Origin: an uncultured bacterium
GTDB taxonomy: Bacteria; Cyanobacteriota; Vampirovibrionia; Obscuribacterales; Obscuribacteraceae
NCBI GenBank assembly: GCA_913063055.1
Contig: CAJXZK010000008.1
Location: 1 to 42,326 of the forward strand
DNA length: 42,326 nt
Direction of reading: 5' to 3'
The notes below the pieces were generated by a model. It was not told the DNA's origin. It saw only the letters and a program-made list of their open reading frames with translations, and searched no databases. Both the position numbers and the translations under genes were made by a program. Positions 35,079 to 41,412 of this stretch are shown piece by piece (the first letter of the stretch is position 1; every line of letters begins with the position of its first letter).

Positions 35079-36509
35079 ATGGCAATTAAGGATAAGACCG
35101 TGGATAGAGCTGGCGAGAAGACGATTGAAAATTCTACTGAAAAATCTACTGAGAAATTGACAGATAAACTGGCTGCTAATCCTTTTCTTGTGGCTAATTT
35201 CGCCCCAGTAGCCGATGAAAATGTTATTTCTGACCTGGCTGTTACCGGCACCATTCCAGAAGAGTTAGAAGGTCGCTTTTTGCGCATCGGGCCCAATCCT
35301 TCAGCCAAACCTAACCCTAAAAAATATCACTGGTTCCTGGGTACGGGCATGGTACACGGCCTGCGCTTGAAGGGCGGCAAGGCCGAGTGGTACAGAAACA
35401 ATTATGTTTTGACCGACAATGCTGCTCGCGATTTGAAGCGTGAGCAATTGCCCTATCCGCGCAAGACCCACGGCGGAAGTGTTAACACTAATGTGCTCAA
35501 CATTGGTGGCGAACTTTATGCTTTGGTTGAGGCTGGCGCTTTGCCGATGAAACTAGATGGCAATTTGCAGACAACAGCTTACAGCGATTTTGATGGAACA
35601 TTGAAAGGCGCTTTCAGTGCTCATCCGCGCCGCGACCCCGTTACTGGTGAGTTGCATGTCTTGGCCTATGAGCCTGGGAAAAAGCATATTGATTATTTGG
35701 TAGTAGATAAGGCCGGGCGATCGCGCACTGCAGCCCAGGTTTCTGCTCCACATCAACCCATGATTCACGATACTGCGATCACACCTTCGTTTGTGGTTGT
35801 GCTCGATTTGCCTATGACATTTGATCTTGTCGCAGCAGTCAGTGGTAAGTTCCCTTATCTATGGAATCGCAAGCAGCCAGCACGTATTGGCCTTCTGCCT
35901 CGCAGCGGTGATGTTAATTCGATGATTTGGTTTGAAGCACCACAGTGTTATGTCTATCACATCATGAATGCTTACGAAGACGGCGGTAAGGTTGTTGTGG
36001 ACGTAGTCAAAAATTCCACCTATTTTGATGCTGATGTGATTAGGCGCGGAATAACTCCTCCGGTTTTTGTGCGTTGGGTGCTAGATTTGCCCACAGGCAA
36101 GCTCTCTGAAACACAGTTAGCTGAGCAAGCAGTGGAGTTTCCGCGCTTGAACGATAGTAGAGTTGGTCAGAGCTATCGTTTTGGTTATACAGCGCAGTTC
36201 ACTGCCAACTTGCAGTTTGGCTCTGCCTACAAGCATGATTTGATCAGTGGCGAAACACAGACTCATGATTTTGGTTCAGGTAGAGCGACAATGGAGCCAG
36301 TTTTTGTGGCTAAGACAAACGCTGTTGCCGAAGACGAAGGCTGGCTTTTGTCTTATGTTTACGACCAGAATACCAATAGAACTGATGTCGTAATTTTAGA
36401 CGCGCAAGATTTTGAATCTGCGCCAGTTGCTACTATTCATCTGCCTGTGCGAGTGCCTTTCGGCTTTCACGGCAATTGGGTGGCTGACTCTGATTTGAAT
36501 GCGTTCTAG
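35079..36509 (+). CDS. Carotenoid oxygenase (carotenoid/apocarotenoid cleavage dioxygenase family)
   Basis: A 476-residue Fe(II) enzyme that cleaves a conjugated polyene double bond with O2 (carotenoid, apocarotenoid or, in some relatives, stilbene/lignin-derived substrates). Family marks: RFLRIGPNPSAKPNPKKYHWFLGTGMVHGLRL, KTHGGSVNTN, and the four iron-binding histidines His182 (SAHPRRD), His230 (MIHDTAIT), His294 (YVYHIMNAYED) and His464 (FGFHGNWV), all present. Seven-bladed propeller length is normal. The N-terminal ~35 residues are Lys/Glu/Thr-rich and probably disordered. Start 35079 has GAGGGG eight bases upstream; an ATG two codons earlier is too close. Preceded by padR and its shared operator, so induction by a substrate is likely. 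The enzyme is compatible with a heterotrophic or light-exposed lifestyle. Confidence 0.93.
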   Translation: MAIKDKTVDRAGEKTIENSTEKSTEKLTDKLAANPFLVANFAPVADENVISDLAVTGTIPEELEGRFLRIGPNPSAKPNPKKYHWFLGTGMVHGLRLKGGKAEWYRNNYVLTDNAARDLKREQLPYPRKTHGGSVNTNVLNIGGELYALVEAGALPMKLDGNLQTTAYSDFDGTLKGAFSAHPRRDPVTGELHVLAYEPGKKHIDYLVVDKAGRSRTAAQVSAPHQPMIHDTAITPSFVVVLDLPMTFDLVAAVSGKFPYLWNRKQPARIGLLPRSGDVNSMIWFEAPQCYVYHIMNAYEDGGKVVVDVVKNSTYFDADVIRRGITPPVFVRWVLDLPTGKLSETQLAEQAVEFPRLNDSRVGQSYRFGYTAQFTANLQFGSAYKHDLISGETQTHDFGSGRATMEPVFVAKTNAVAEDEGWLLSYVYDQNTNRTDVVILDAQDFESAPVATIHLPVRVPFGFHGNWVADSDLNAF

Positions 36510-36572
36510 CTAGTTCGAATCATCAGTCACTATTTATTTCGCAACAAAAATGGCGATTGAAGAAAAAGATCG
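36510..36572. other. Spacer between the oxygenase and the arg leader
   Basis: First part of a 410-base gap (36510-36919) that otherwise consists of the argF leader described in the following entries. No gene or repeat is visible here. Confidence 0.4.
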
Positions 36573-36601
36573 TTGACAAAGTAGAAGCTCGCCGTTAACC
36601 T
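36573..36601 (+). promoter_or_regulatory. Possible arg operon promoter
   Basis: Perfect -35 TTGACA at 36573-36578, and TAACCT at 36596-36601 after 17 bases as a weak -10. A start near 36608 would leave about 29 bases before the leader-peptide ATG. The -10 is poor, so this stays tentative. Confidence 0.4.
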
Positions 36602-36636
36602 TCAACAAGTTACCGCTTTGGAATGCAACCGCAGAA

Positions 36637-36729
36637 ATGCTTTTACTTGCTTCTACTACTCTTATAGCTAATGCCGCTGACCGACGCCGCCGCGAGTTCT
36701 CACCGAACCCGGGGCATCGACTTGCATAG
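36637..36729 (+). CDS. Candidate arginine leader peptide (attenuator control ORF)
   Basis: A 30-codon frame, ATG at 36637, stop TAG at 36727-36729. The peptide begins MLLLASTTLIANAAD and then has RRRR at codons 16-19 (CGA CGC CGC CGC, 36682-36693), followed by EFSPNPGHRLA with a fifth Arg. It is too short for any ordinary gene call. A run of four Arg codons placed ~13 bases before an antiterminator arm, upstream of argF-argG-argH, is what a ribosome-mediated attenuator needs: stalling at Arg codons when charged arginine tRNA is scarce. Weak point: no good Shine-Dalgarno lies directly in front (only GGA about 14 bases upstream). An overlapping frame from 36623 has six Leu codons in a row and is treated as a competing reading. 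Not proven to be translated. Confidence 0.55.
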   Translation: MLLLASTTLIANAADRRRREFSPNPGHRLA

Positions 36730-36792
36730 CTAATAAGCTAATAAGCGCAACAAGACTGTCATCCCTGGGTTAATCACCCGGGGATTTTTTTT
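36706..36792 (+). promoter_or_regulatory. Transcription attenuator upstream of argF: mutually exclusive antiterminator and terminator
   Basis: Element 3 ATCCCTGGGTT (36761-36771) can pair in two ways. With element 4 ACCCGGGGAT (36776-36785) it forms a 10-pair hairpin (one G-T) with loop TAATC, and with T-run 36785-36792 this is an intrinsic terminator. With element 2 AACCCGGGGcAT (36706-36717), which lies inside the leader frame, it forms an 11-pair antiterminator with one G-T and one bulge. Elements 2 and 4 are near copies of each other, so the structures exclude one another. A ribosome stalled at the Arg codons (36682-36693) would leave element 2 free and allow read-through; one reaching the stop codon at 36727 would mask part of it and let the terminator form. 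Confidence 0.65.
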
Positions 36793-36919
36793 GCTTTAGC
36801 CATCAAGTTCAGCTCAGACCTACCGACCTAACAACCTACCGACCATCTGGCTTACGGTTCCCTACCCACAATAGTTTGCCCATAGCCAACCGCTCAACCC
36901 ACTGTAAAAGGAAAGACAA

Positions 36920-37951
36920 ATGACCCTAACTGCTCAAACCGAGATTAATACAGCAAAAGTAACTGCTAAATCTGGTAAGCCCCAGCGTATGGCTAATCCC
37001 GAGGGCGTTTCTCCTCTGGCTTTTGTTCTCGATGAGCACAGCATGCGCGGCAAAGACATTATTGGTATTGAGCAGCTCAGCGCTACGGAATTACTGTTGA
37101 TTCTTGATGTGGCAGCCAAGCTCAAAGCAAATAAGTTTGACGCCACCCAGACACTTTTTGCTAAAGGTCAAACTTTGACCATGTTGTTCGAGAAGCCATC
37201 ATTGCGCACCAGAGTGACATTTGAGGCTGGAATGACGCAGTTAGGTGGTCATGCCATCAATATTGAAACCAAGCTTGGTGAGCGCGAGACAATTGCCGAT
37301 GTGGGCAAGAACCTTGAGCGTTGGGTTGATGGTGTTATGGCTCGCACTTTTGAGCATTCGACAGTTGTGGCTCTGGCAGCCAATGCTAATGTTCCGGTCA
37401 TCAACGGCTTATCTGATAAAGAGCATCCTTGCCAGGCCCTGGCTGATTTCCAAACCCTGATTGAGCATAAAGGCATCAAAGACATAAAACTGGCCTATGT
37501 CGGTGATTCCAACAATGTCTCTAATTCCCTTTTGCTCTTAGCGGCTACTCTAGGCGTTGATTTTTCCATGGGTTGTCCTCACAAATATGAGCCCCAGGCC
37601 TCGATTTGGATGAAAGCATTGGAGCTAGCCAAAATTTCTGGCGCTGAAATAACTCTTTCAAATGATCCTTATGAAGCGGTCGCCAATGCTGATGCTGTTT
37701 ATACCGATGTGTGGACATCAATGGGCCAAGAAGCTGAGGCCAAAGAGCGAGAAAAGATTTTTGCCCCTTATCAGCTCAATTGCGAGCTGATGAAGCACGC
37801 CAAGCCCGATGCCATCGTCATGCATTGCCTGCCTGCTCATCGCGGTTTAGAGATTACAGATGAAGTTATTGATGGTCCAAACTCAGTGGTTTTTGACCAG
37901 GCCGAAAACAGATTACACGCTCAGAAAGCCATTTTGGCGCTTGTTCTTTAG
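36920..37951 (+). CDS. argF: Ornithine carbamoyltransferase
   Basis: A 343-residue enzyme making citrulline from ornithine and carbamoyl phosphate, step 6 of arginine synthesis, cytoplasmic homotrimer. Carbamoyl-phosphate-binding loop is SLRTR (94-98, the common variant of STRTR) in FEKPSLRTRVTFE, with ART at 141-143 and HPCQALADFQT from His169. The ornithine-side motifs MHCLPAHRG and DVWTSMGQE are present. A ~35-residue N-terminal extension precedes the usual start of the family, beginning with MTLTAQTEINTAK. AAAAGGAAAG lies six bases before the ATG. First structural gene of argF-argG-argH, 128 bases after the attenuator T-run. Any anabolic versus catabolic distinction rests on context: the downstream argGH genes make it anabolic. 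Confidence 0.97.
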   Translation: MTLTAQTEINTAKVTAKSGKPQRMANPEGVSPLAFVLDEHSMRGKDIIGIEQLSATELLLILDVAAKLKANKFDATQTLFAKGQTLTMLFEKPSLRTRVTFEAGMTQLGGHAINIETKLGERETIADVGKNLERWVDGVMARTFEHSTVVALAANANVPVINGLSDKEHPCQALADFQTLIEHKGIKDIKLAYVGDSNNVSNSLLLLAATLGVDFSMGCPHKYEPQASIWMKALELAKISGAEITLSNDPYEAVANADAVYTDVWTSMGQEAEAKEREKIFAPYQLNCELMKHAKPDAIVMHCLPAHRGLEITDEVIDGPNSVVFDQAENRLHAQKAILALVL

Positions 37952-38053
37952 AAGAAAGACCTCAGTTTTAAGAGAAAGTTGAATCCACATTCAAGAAAAA
38001 CTAAAAGCCCAAACCCAAATTCACACCAACCTACAGATACTCGGGAGAACCCA

Positions 38054-39274
38054 ATGAAGAAAATTTTGCTAGCTTATTCCGGCGGACTAGATACTTCCTG
38101 CATTTTGACCTGGCTCAAAGAGAAGCACAATGTGCCGGTTGTGGCCTACTGCGCTAACGTGGGTCAAGAAGAAGACTTCGACGCTGTACACGAAAAAGCT
38201 CTCAAGACCGGCGCTGAGAAGTGCATTATTGATGACCTCAAAGCAGAGTTTGTCAAAGACTTTATCTTCCCTTCAATTCAAGCTAACGCAGTCTACGAAG
38301 CAGTTTATTTGTTGGGCACATCCCTTGCTCGGCCATGCATTGCCCAAGGCATGGTTGAAGCAGCCTTGCGTGAAGGATGTGATTACATTGCCCACGGCGC
38401 CACTGGCAAAGGTAATGATCAAGTGCGTTTTGAACTAGCGGTGAAGTCGTTGGCTCCGCAGTTGGGTGTGATTGCTCCCTGGCGTGAGTGGGAGTATCAG
38501 AGCCGTACAGATTTGTTTGCCTACGCTGAGAAGCATGGTATTCCTTTGCCAATCACTAAAGAAAAGCCTTATTCGATGGATGCCAATTTGATGCACATTA
38601 GCTATGAGGGTGGCATTCTAGAAGACCCGTGGCAAGAAGCTCCTGAAAACATTTATCTGTGGACCAAGAACCCTGAAGAAGCTCCAGATAAGGCTCAATT
38701 TGTTGAAATTGAATTTGAGCAGGGTGTGCCAGTGGCTATTGATGGTGAGAAATTAGGGCCAGTTGAATTGGTTGAGAAGGCCAATGCTATTGCAGCTGCC
38801 CACGGAGTCGGCCGTATTGATCTAGTTGAGAATCGCTTTATTGGTATTAAGTCGAGAGGCGTGTATGAAACCCCTGGTGTAACTATTCTCTTGCAAGCTC
38901 ACCAGGCCGTTGAATCGCTCACTCTCGATAAAGAAGTGGCGCACTTGAAGCAGTCGTTGGTAAGCAAAATTGCTGAACTAACCTACAACGGCTTCTGGTT
39001 TGCTCCAGAGACTCAACTGCTGCATAACTTCATCAAAGAATCGCAAACTTGCGTTACTGGTGTTGCCAAAATTAAGCTCTACAAGGGCAACTCAATGGTT
39101 GTGGCAAGAAAGTCAGAACAATCTCTCTACAGCGAAAAGATGACAAGCTTCGAGAATATGTCGAGCTTCAACCCCGCTGATTCTGGCGGTTTCATCAATA
39201 TCAACGGTCTTAGACTCTCTGCCTGGAGCCAGAAAAATGCAAGTATTAAGAAAAGCGTTCACGCAACAGCTTGA
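38054..39274 (+). CDS. argG: Argininosuccinate synthase
   Basis: A 406-residue ligase joining citrulline and aspartate with ATP, step 7 of arginine synthesis. ATP-pyrophosphatase loop AYSGGLDTSC (7-16), then CANVGQEEDFD, and the citrulline/aspartate-binding blocks HGATGKGNDQVRFE, APWREWEY and YSMDANLMHISYEGGILEDPW, all intact. Length is typical of the bacterial type. The start at 38054 is set by GGGAG seven bases upstream and by the conserved MKKILLAYSGGLD; the frame runs 25 codons further upstream with low-complexity, non-conserved residues. It is separated from argF by 102 bases, and its last 38 bases overlap argH. Confidence 0.97.
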   Translation: MKKILLAYSGGLDTSCILTWLKEKHNVPVVAYCANVGQEEDFDAVHEKALKTGAEKCIIDDLKAEFVKDFIFPSIQANAVYEAVYLLGTSLARPCIAQGMVEAALREGCDYIAHGATGKGNDQVRFELAVKSLAPQLGVIAPWREWEYQSRTDLFAYAEKHGIPLPITKEKPYSMDANLMHISYEGGILEDPWQEAPENIYLWTKNPEEAPDKAQFVEIEFEQGVPVAIDGEKLGPVELVEKANAIAAAHGVGRIDLVENRFIGIKSRGVYETPGVTILLQAHQAVESLTLDKEVAHLKQSLVSKIAELTYNGFWFAPETQLLHNFIKESQTCVTGVAKIKLYKGNSMVVARKSEQSLYSEKMTSFENMSSFNPADSGGFININGLRLSAWSQKNASIKKSVHATA

Positions 39275-40595
39275 TCAATCGGTTACTGCCTTTGTCAATT
39301 CAGTTGATGCCGATGAGGCTTTGGTTGAAGTTGATATCCAAGGTAGTATCGCCCACGCCACTATGTTGTGTCAGCAGGGTCTCCTCACGGAGGCCCAGGG
39401 CACAAGCATCGTTGCTGGATTGAAGACGATTTTGGCCGAGTATCAAGAGGGCAAGTTTACGCTCAATCCTGTTTTTGAAGACGTTCATATGAATGTCGAG
39501 AAACGTCTTGAGCAGCTCATTGGTCAAGACGCTCTGCGGTTGCACACGGCCCGCAGTAGAAATGATCAAGTGGCACTTGATCTGAGGCTCTTTGTGCTTG
39601 GTCAAATTGCTTTGCATAAAACGCAAATTACTGTGCTTAAGTCGGCAATAGCTAAATGCGCTCTTGCTAATATTGAGGCCGTAATGCCTGGTTATACCCA
39701 TTTGCAAAGAGCACAGCCAGTGCTTTTCGCCCACGCCATGCATGCTTTTATGGAAATGCTTGAGCGCGATTTTGGTCGCTTTTGCGATCTAGAAAAGCGC
39801 ACTGCAGTCTCGCCTCTTGGCGCTGGAGCTCAGGCTGGAACTGGTTTGCCTATTGATCCACATTTGAGTGCCAAACTGCTGGGGCTGCCCACTTGCTTCA
39901 ATAATTCGATTGATGCTGTAAGCGATCGCGATTTCGTTGCTGAGTATTTATTTGCAGCATCGATGTGCTCTGTGCACTTGAGTCAGATGGCTGAGACTTT
40001 CGTTATTTGGGCCACTCGAGAATTTGGCTTTGTCACTTTCAGCGATGCGGTTACCACTGCGTCAAGTCTGATGCCGCAGAAGAAGAACCCTGACCCAGTC
40101 GAGATTGTGCGTGGTAAGGCTGGTGGGATGATGGGAGAACTCATCAATGTTCTCTCCACCTTGAAAGGTTTGCCTTTAGGCTATAACCGTGATTTGCAGG
40201 AGACAAAACCCCCAGCAATTAAGGTTGGCAAAGAATTAAGCGGATGCTTGAACGTCATGGCCGTGGCAGTCAATAGCATGACTGTTAACAGTGCAACTAC
40301 GCTTAAGGCGGCTTCTGATCCCGATATGATCACAACTGATCTAGTTGAGTATCTAGTCAATAAATCGGTGCCTTTTCGCAAAGCCCACGAAGAAGTGTCG
40401 GCTCTTGTGGCTTTCGCCCGCGAGAAAAATGTTTCTCTTTCGACTTTGACATTGGCGGAGATGCAGAGCTTCAGTAAAGAATACGATAGCGACGCTCTGG
40501 CGCTGTTTGATCCGGTTGTATCGGTTAATGCTAAGACTTCTTACGGCAGCACCGGTACGGCTAGAGTGAAGGCGGTGGCAGAAAGTCGGGACTAG
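39237..40595 (+). CDS. argH: Argininosuccinate lyase
   Basis: A 452-residue enzyme of the fumarase/aspartase superfamily that releases arginine and fumarate, the last step of arginine synthesis. Motifs: HTARSRNDQV (103-112), general acid/base His154 in GYTHLQRAQP, and the flexible-loop signature SSLMPQKKNPDPVEI (276-290) with its catalytic Ser. Most homologues start with an LWGGRF motif; here the corresponding stretch is QVLRKAFTQQLDQS, so the Trp-Gly-Gly is replaced. The ATG at 39237 lies 38 bases inside the end of argG in another frame, with GGAG eight bases upstream, so translation is coupled. No terminator is obvious after the stop; the toxin gene converges 62 bases later. Confidence 0.97.
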   Translation: MQVLRKAFTQQLDQSVTAFVNSVDADEALVEVDIQGSIAHATMLCQQGLLTEAQGTSIVAGLKTILAEYQEGKFTLNPVFEDVHMNVEKRLEQLIGQDALRLHTARSRNDQVALDLRLFVLGQIALHKTQITVLKSAIAKCALANIEAVMPGYTHLQRAQPVLFAHAMHAFMEMLERDFGRFCDLEKRTAVSPLGAGAQAGTGLPIDPHLSAKLLGLPTCFNNSIDAVSDRDFVAEYLFAASMCSVHLSQMAETFVIWATREFGFVTFSDAVTTASSLMPQKKNPDPVEIVRGKAGGMMGELINVLSTLKGLPLGYNRDLQETKPPAIKVGKELSGCLNVMAVAVNSMTVNSATTLKAASDPDMITTDLVEYLVNKSVPFRKAHEEVSALVAFAREKNVSLSTLTLAEMQSFSKEYDSDALALFDPVVSVNAKTSYGSTGTARVKAVAESRD

Positions 40596-40657: not shown

Positions 40658-41068
40658 TTAGTCCCAGAAGACTGCGCATGGACTGGTTTCGTTAATTAGT
40701 CTGTCCCCTGTGATTAGCGGGCAGTCGATTCGAAGAGCCATAGCTACTATCAATACATCAAATGGGTCATTGCTGAATAGCAGGCTGTGCGAGCGGATTA
40801 TATCTTCGGTTTCAATATCGACAATTGATATTGCTTTGGCAAAGAATTGCTCTTGAACGTATTCTTCAAGTGGAATTGCCGTTTTAACCGTCCCAGCTTT
40901 TATGAGTAGTGAGAGTTCCCATAGCACCACTGCCGGAATGAAAATAGCGGAGCGTCCTGATACGGCGCTGTCAAATGCTTTCTTGACTTTGTTTGGCAAC
41001 TTGCGAAATTGCGCTGTTATGTAATACACCAGTGGGTGCGTGTCGGTAACAAGTAATGGCGCAGTCAT
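40658..41068 (-). CDS. vapC: PIN-domain toxin (VapC-like ribonuclease)
   Basis: A 136-residue PIN-fold Mg2+ nuclease. The acidic cluster is present: Asp9 (TDTHPLVYY), Glu51 (VVLWELSLLIKAG), Asp104 in the family motif DPFDVLIVAMAL and Asp122 in LITGDRLI. Family members cut tRNA or rRNA and are held inactive by a cognate antitoxin. Its ATG overlaps the antitoxin stop by four bases (ATGA), the usual coupled arrangement in which the antitoxin comes first. Convergent with argH. Whether it is an active system in this genome is not known from sequence. Confidence 0.9.
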   Translation of the reverse strand: MTAPLLVTDTHPLVYYITAQFRKLPNKVKKAFDSAVSGRSAIFIPAVVLWELSLLIKAGTVKTAIPLEEYVQEQFFAKAISIVDIETEDIIRSHSLLFSNDPFDVLIVAMALRIDCPLITGDRLINETSPCAVFWD

Positions 41069-41376
41069 AGTTCTTTCGTGGACCTAGCAATTGAATCAAG
41101 GACAGATTGAGTAATTTTATTGCTTGCTTGTTCTAAATCACCGACAAGCACAGCGGAGCCCGCTAGCTGACGCTTCGGCTTGAAGGGTTGGTTTGATTGG
41201 GCTAGAAGCCAGAGATAGTCTTTGTAGCCAAGCATGACCGCAGCTACTTTTCCGTAGTCTGTTACTTCAACAACACCACCAATTTTGGAGAGAGACTCAA
41301 CGAGTGGAGCAAACTGCTCACGTGCCTGCGTCTTGCCGAGCTTCTTAAGGTTTTTTTTGTGTGCGATGTCTGTCAT
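41065..41376 (-). CDS. Antitoxin of the Phd/YefM type
   Basis: A 103-residue protein starting MTDIAHKKNLKKLG. The core TQAREQFAPLVESLSKIGGVVEVTDYGKVAAVMLGYKDYLWLL follows the Phd/YefM N-terminal dimer fold (R-x-x-F-x-x-L-x-x-x ... V-x-V-x-x-x-G-x-x-x-A-V-M-x), which binds DNA; the C-terminal tail would wrap the PIN toxin. A longer form from a GTG at 41397 is possible but would place the start inside the palindromic operator, so the ATG at 41376 with GGTGA five bases upstream is preferred. First gene of the toxin-antitoxin operon and expected to repress its own promoter with the toxin as co-repressor. Confidence 0.88.
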   Translation of the reverse strand: MTDIAHKKNLKKLGKTQAREQFAPLVESLSKIGGVVEVTDYGKVAAVMLGYKDYLWLLAQSNQPFKPKRQLAGSAVLVGDLEQASNKITQSVLDSIARSTKEL

Positions 41377-41388
41377 TGAATCACCAAG

Positions 41389-41412
41389 ACTGTACACAAA
41401 ACACTGTACAGT
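41389..41412 (-). promoter_or_regulatory. Toxin-antitoxin autoregulatory operator
   Basis: Perfect inverted repeat ACTGTACA (41389-41396) / TGTACAGT (41405-41412) with an 8-base spacer. Each half also contains the palindrome TGTACA, and ACTGTACA recurs as a direct repeat 14 bases later (41403). It lies 12 bases before the antitoxin start, as expected for Phd-type binding. Confidence 0.75.

Follow-up and report, generated by a model that had tools for sequence, protein, structure and literature searches.

Which mechanism controls the arginine genes argF, argG and argH in an uncultured bacterium of the family Obscuribacteraceae (Cyanobacteriota; Vampirovibrionia; Obscuribacterales)? The question is raised by a stretch of 42,326 nucleotides (contig CAJXZK010000008.1 of assembly GCA_913063055.1, contig C8 in a draft genome of 5.7 Mb; here referred to as the window), in which a short reading frame with four consecutive arginine codons and a set of competing RNA elements lie ahead of argF. 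Arginine is the textbook example of a dispersed regulon under one repressor (ArgR/AhrC); the operons known to have leader-peptide attenuators are his, trp, leu, ilv, thr and phe. Attenuation counts as typical of his, trp, leu and thr and, to our knowledge, has not been known for arginine biosynthesis. We conclude, with a probability of about 0.9, that the cassette before argF is a ribosome-mediated transcription attenuator sensing charged tRNA-Arg, and that several copies of it control the whole arginine pathway in Obscuribacteraceae. The basis is sequence and comparison, namely the frame, its codons, three competing helices, their covariation, a promoter-like site and an exclusive association with arg genes; from these we infer that the ribosome stalls, in which direction the switch responds and that transcription terminates. 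The argF leader contains the following elements.

36637 to 36729, forward strand: leader peptide frame of 30 codons, MLLLASTTLIANAADRRRREFSPNPGHRLA, with the stop codon TAG at 36727; the frame is kept in relatives
36682 to 36693, forward strand: control codons CGA CGC CGC CGC (four Arg); Arg is kept and the wobble bases of codons 1 and 2 vary among relatives
36689 to 36699, forward strand: element 1, the 5' arm of the protector hairpin, which overlaps the last two Arg codons and pairs with 36705-36715 (from folds and covariation)
36705 to 36715, forward strand: element 2, GAACCCGGGGC, partner of element 1 or element 3 (from folds, shuffles, swap test and covariation)
36727 to 36740, forward strand: stop codon in the apical hairpin of the antiterminator (from folds and geometry)
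36761 to 36771, forward strand: element 3, partner of element 2 (antiterminator) or element 4 (terminator) (from folds and swap test)
36776 to 36792, forward strand: element 4 (36776-36785) and a run of eight T, together a predicted intrinsic terminator (from terminator prediction and covariation)

A preliminary description of this DNA had already reported the 30-codon frame with CGA CGC CGC CGC, elements 2, 3 and 4 and the 8-base T-run, and all of them were found again, the core of element 2 being AACCCGGGG at 36706-36714. It had also placed the control codons about 13 bases before element 2 and the stop codon just after it; we measured 12 nt from the last Arg codon to the start of element 2 and 12 nt from element 2 to the TAG. 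The layout therefore stands as it was described, with three additions that had been overlooked: the 1:2 hairpin, a promoter-like TTGACA-N17-TAACCT (36573-36601) and two further copies in the same genome.

DNA similarity searches led to a second copy in the genome itself, in front of argC, and to one that precedes argG in another genome (G018). We built a covariance model, R1, from 17 leaders and obtained 43 matches at E <= 1e-4 in 50 genomes of the family, 26 of which contain a match at E <= 0.01. Relatives of the window's genome include Candidatus Obscuribacter phosphatis EBPR_351 (L114) and other metagenome-assembled genomes (MAGs) of Obscuribacterales. The gene next to the match is argF, argC, argJ, argG or argB for 42 of the 43 strong matches, and the remaining one stops at a contig edge. 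Matches with E from 1e-3 to 1e-2 in G030 (C154 and C143), G006 (C26) and G065 are not leaders. The genome of the window holds three copies: one precedes argF, one precedes argC (C242:2489-2606) and one separates argC from argJ (C242:3875-4000). In this genome argJ is followed by argB and argD, and argF by argGH, so that a leader stands before each arginine transcription unit that was found. Moreover, only about 13 nt lie between the T-run and the start codon of argC, and about 30 nt between it and that of argF in G001; as this leaves no room for a promoter, the terminator must be conditional. The search was also widened beyond the family: in a phylum-wide R1 search of 386 genomes the genome of the window was the sole match, a class-wide search of 289 genomes gave one strong match outside the family, of Ile/Val/Leu type and not Arg, and a second weak one (E = 1e-3), and among 79 argF loci taken from named genomes the 71 more distant showed no cassette match. 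Two loci are recorded here as separate observations. In G060 there are two diverged argC leaders, together with argC (L093 and L095; C49 and C445), as well as two argF-type leaders (L091 and L039), possibly a strain mixture in the MAG. Contig JARLGU010000054.1 (L115), labelled Capsulimonadaceae, carries an argF 71% identical to that of the window without a cassette, and may be a misassigned Obscuribacterales contig.

The reading frame and its arginine codons are maintained across these leaders. Given the local Arg frequency, the chance of RRRR in such a frame is about 2e-4, and RRRR or a similar run is present in all strong leaders except that of G006, which has only RR. The codons are synonymously variable: CGA, CGC and CGT alternate in positions one and two, and argJ leaders have either CGA or AGA. 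An in-frame start codon without a stop before the Arg run was found in all leaders with enough upstream sequence (42/42). ATG occurs in the frame of the Arg run in 34 of these 42, compared with 0 and 3 in the other two frames and 7.5 +- 2.7 in shuffles. In addition, the predicted -10 element of G032 and G063 (L021 and L022) puts the transcription start at the A of the leader ATG, which suggests that their leader-peptide mRNA is leaderless. The spacing is constrained as well: by the annotated frame, element 2 starts 22-27 nt past the first Arg codon in all leaders but one. The exception is the argJ leader of G009 (14 nt), in which further Arg codons stand upstream. From the stop codon to element 3 the distance is 18-48 nt in every leader. 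Thus the control codons are located on or just ahead of element 1, and the stop where a ribosome would cover element 2.

The alternative helices were examined by shuffling, by comparison and by folding. Set against dinucleotide shuffles, the argF leader has the better fold (z = -2.4; it was equalled by 1 of 200), and its 2:3 complementarity was matched by none of 300 shuffles of the intervening region. Among the leaders element 3 varies as CCCGGGTT, CCTGGGT or CCCGAGTTC, with elements 2 and 4 changing to match, and compensatory changes are present in all three helices. When own partners were set against swapped ones without an alignment, the elements paired better with their own: the counts were 0/5000 for 2:3, 0/5000 for 3:4 and 13/5000 for 1:2, with 4948/5000 for the control 1:3. 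In the model alignment the 3:4 and 1:2 helices both show strong column covariation, and in the 1:2 helix one pair occurs as C-G 18, U-A 13 and G-C 2 times and the next as U-A 22 and G-C 15 times; the swap and covariation controls are not fully corrected for relatedness, and this alignment was fitted to 1:2 and 3:4. For a transcript reaching element 3 and ending before element 4, the folded probability of 2:3 is 0.98 with a ribosome mask on the Arg codons and 0.04 with the mask at the stop; without a ribosome it is 0.83 at equilibrium, and 1:2 forms with a probability of 0.98 before element 3 exists.

The preliminary description had proposed looking in relatives for a conserved frame with covarying alternative stems, and folding the leader with and without a mask, and had named a terminator kept without the Arg codons or element 2 as the case that would speak against it. 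That case did not occur among the relatives, in which frame, Arg codons, element 2 and terminator are kept together; the stems covary by the swap test and by column counts, and the mask shifts the 2:3 pairing as given above. Conservation, covariation and masked folding hence support its reading, in which low charged tRNA-Arg would stall the ribosome, free element 2 and switch argFGH on.

The leader is embedded in a locus with these further features.

36573 to 36601, forward strand: predicted promoter TTGACA-N17-TAACCT, between the oxygenase gene and the leader frame (from sequence)
36920 to 37951, forward strand: argF, ornithine carbamoyltransferase (TIGR00658 above cut-off, NCBIfam equivalog)
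38051 to 39274, forward strand: argG, argininosuccinate synthase (TIGR00032 above cut-off, NCBIfam equivalog)
39237 to 40595, forward strand: argH, argininosuccinate lyase (TIGR00838 above cut-off, NCBIfam equivalog)

The gene on the 5' side of the leader encodes a relative of carotenoid-cleaving dioxygenases (the oxygenase gene), with its stop at 36509. From the sequence, the argFGH leader is predicted to be transcribed from about 36608. A stricter promoter scan of the argF leader region did not report TTGACA-N17-TAACCT; sites composed of TTGACA, a 17-nt spacer and a -10 of TAxxxT type precede most of the other leaders at much the same distance. Behind argH, two small adjacent genes on the minus strand (40658-41397 of the window) look by eye like a PIN-type toxin and an antitoxin.

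The attenuator is expected to work as follows. Transcription would start at about 36608. Under a shortage of Arg-tRNA, the first ribosome would stall at the CGN run and cover element 1, leaving element 2 free to pair with element 3 once this is made; no terminator would form and argFGH would be transcribed. When Arg-tRNA is ample, the ribosome would reach the stop beside element 2 and block 2:3, and 3:4 would end transcription at 36785-36792. If the frame is not translated, 1:2 would form first and leave 3:4 free, which would give basal termination. The locus possesses the parts that define an attenuator, i.e. a frame with cognate codons, mutually exclusive 1:2, 2:3 and 3:4 helices, and a terminator near the structural gene, with a predicted promoter before the leader.

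Three other explanations were considered. The best surviving one, which we nevertheless regard as improbable, is nascent-peptide arrest, in which an Arg-rich peptide, perhaps binding free arginine or ornithine, would stall the ribosome (compare the fungal AAP and the bacterial SpeFL). Consecutive basic residues are indeed able to slow ribosomes. SpeF-type leaders with Arg codons are also known (PMC6386406). However, outside the Arg run the peptide sequences are not conserved among leaders, unlike those of the SpeFL type, and arrest by abundant arginine would favour 2:3 and turn biosynthesis on, which is the wrong sign. Element 2, moreover, is read in another frame in G016 and the stop stands directly before it in G032, G063 and the argC leader of G027, which argues that element 2 is conserved as RNA and not as peptide. 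Still less probable is a metabolite riboswitch or a protein-bound antiterminator with incidental translation. Between elements 2 and 3 the argC leaders do retain a hairpin and a segment resembling TTAGCACCA, as such a regulator might, but the conservation of the frame with synonymous variation of its Arg codons, and the constraint on the stop position and on the spacing from Arg codons to element 2, point to a translated leader. A scan of 36400-37100 against Rfam gave no family above the gathering score and no T-box match; weak matches to NsiR1 and anti-hemB lie below that score, reflect mainly the terminator and were rejected. Least credible is the idea, raised as a worry in the preliminary description, that the hairpin merely terminates the oxygenase gene and the Arg codons are a coincidence: the hairpin does lie past the oxygenase stop and is a good intrinsic terminator, but a promoter-like site separates it from that gene, relatives carry the cassette with Arg frame and element 2 before argF, argC, argJ, argG and argB with other genes upstream, and an unconditional terminator 13 nt ahead of argC would silence argC.

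Several observations weigh against ribosome-mediated attenuation or against its proposed history. First, the Shine-Dalgarno sequence, which had been described as missing, is indeed weak in the argF leader, where only GGA at 36620 is present, but the argC leader copies have AAGGTG ahead of the ATG. Second, the column covariation of 2:3 is only modestly above that of shuffles, because element 3 also pairs with element 4. Third, the full-length leader RNA always ends in the terminator at equilibrium, so the switch would have to be kinetic, settled during the advance of RNA polymerase as it is in known attenuators. The distribution of ArgR (PF02863), on the other hand, speaks for the attenuator, with two exceptions. 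ArgR occurs in 8 of the 50 family genomes and is absent from all six genomes of the genus, which therefore lack the repressor of an ArgR/AhrC regulon. Among 29 genomes with a long argF match or an argF leader, ArgR is found in 0 of 18 with the leader and in 7 of 11 without it (Fisher p = 2e-4, uncorrected for relatedness). Against a complete replacement, two genomes combine ArgR with a leader, namely G064 (argB leader) and G006 (argJ leader with two adjacent Arg codons). The leader cassette thus apparently replaced the ArgR repressor as a strong tendency and not as a rule.

Leaders of a second kind are present in the same genus. In four of its genomes (L200 = G000:C171, L199, L201 and L198) a frame that reads MTGRNHHHHHMFLDGAD or resembles it, with up to seven His in the variants, is followed by a terminator in front of hisG; the layout is that of a classical his leader. 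This suggests that the lineage uses leader-peptide attenuation generally. For ilvB and leuA of the bacterial type, no match above the cut-off was found in the genus. In a genome from another family of the class, a short frame rich in Ile, Val and Leu, MLSRSIIILTVVVLVLIGSTG, with the same 2:3 and 3:4 layout precedes a 547-aa frame without a family match (G049:C2:409500-413500, minus strand, around 2230-2430; L188).

How does the cassette compare with known systems? A survey of premature terminators in 2010 found leader-peptide systems known only in Proteobacteria and Actinobacteria and then added Firmicutes (PMC2965389), and a survey of Actinobacteria in 2005 listed no RNA elements for arginine and cited only T-boxes (PMC1262725). 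In the open-access literature we came across no report that arginine biosynthesis is controlled by ribosome-mediated transcription attenuation. It seems likely to us that this is the first such case, and that the cassette, copied to each arg unit (within argC-argJBD there is a second leader with a promoter of its own), displaced ArgR as the regulator of the whole pathway in a family of the non-photosynthetic sister class of cyanobacteria. Copies of a translated RNA switch would then govern the same dispersed arginine regulon in a lineage that lacks ArgR. This enables a comparison of how a regulon passes from a protein to a cis-RNA regulator, and bears on why attenuation has been unknown for arginine biosynthesis. 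Leader-peptide attenuation, for Arg and His, would also extend to an uncultured branch of Cyanobacteriota, and the covariance model can be used for annotation.

The ArgR/AhrC regulon and the Arg T-boxes (the latter noted in PMC1262725) control the same genes, by a protein repressor and by an RNA that binds tRNA directly, respectively, whereas here ArgR is absent, there is no T-box match and a reading frame is conserved. The speF leader of Salmonella and Escherichia coli (orf34 or SpeFL) resembles the cassette in that a ribosome pause at consecutive Arg codons alters mRNA folding (PMC6386406), but its target is ornithine decarboxylase, which it regulates by way of Rho, RNase G and translation, and not arginine biosynthesis by way of an intrinsic terminator. 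In the Pseudomonas aeruginosa carAB leader, as far as it is cited in PMC4997734, a leader peptide likewise stands before an arginine/pyrimidine gene and attenuation was proposed; by that citation it appears tied to pyrimidines, with arginine acting at the transcriptional level, and concerns one operon only. The closest relatives in layout are the Yanofsky-type attenuators of his, trp, leu, ilv, thr and phe, which share an own promoter (predicted here), a short leader with cognate codons, biosynthetic genes downstream, a 1:2 protector, a 2:3 antiterminator, a 3:4 terminator with a U-run and a stop placed to block element 2. Unlike these, the present leaders carry arginine codons, several are distributed across one pathway with one inside the argC-argJBD cluster, and the lineage is outside the groups in which leader peptides were known in 2010 (PMC2965389). 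What would be new here is that the amino acid is arginine, that the attenuator serves the entire pathway and that it seems to have taken the place of ArgR.
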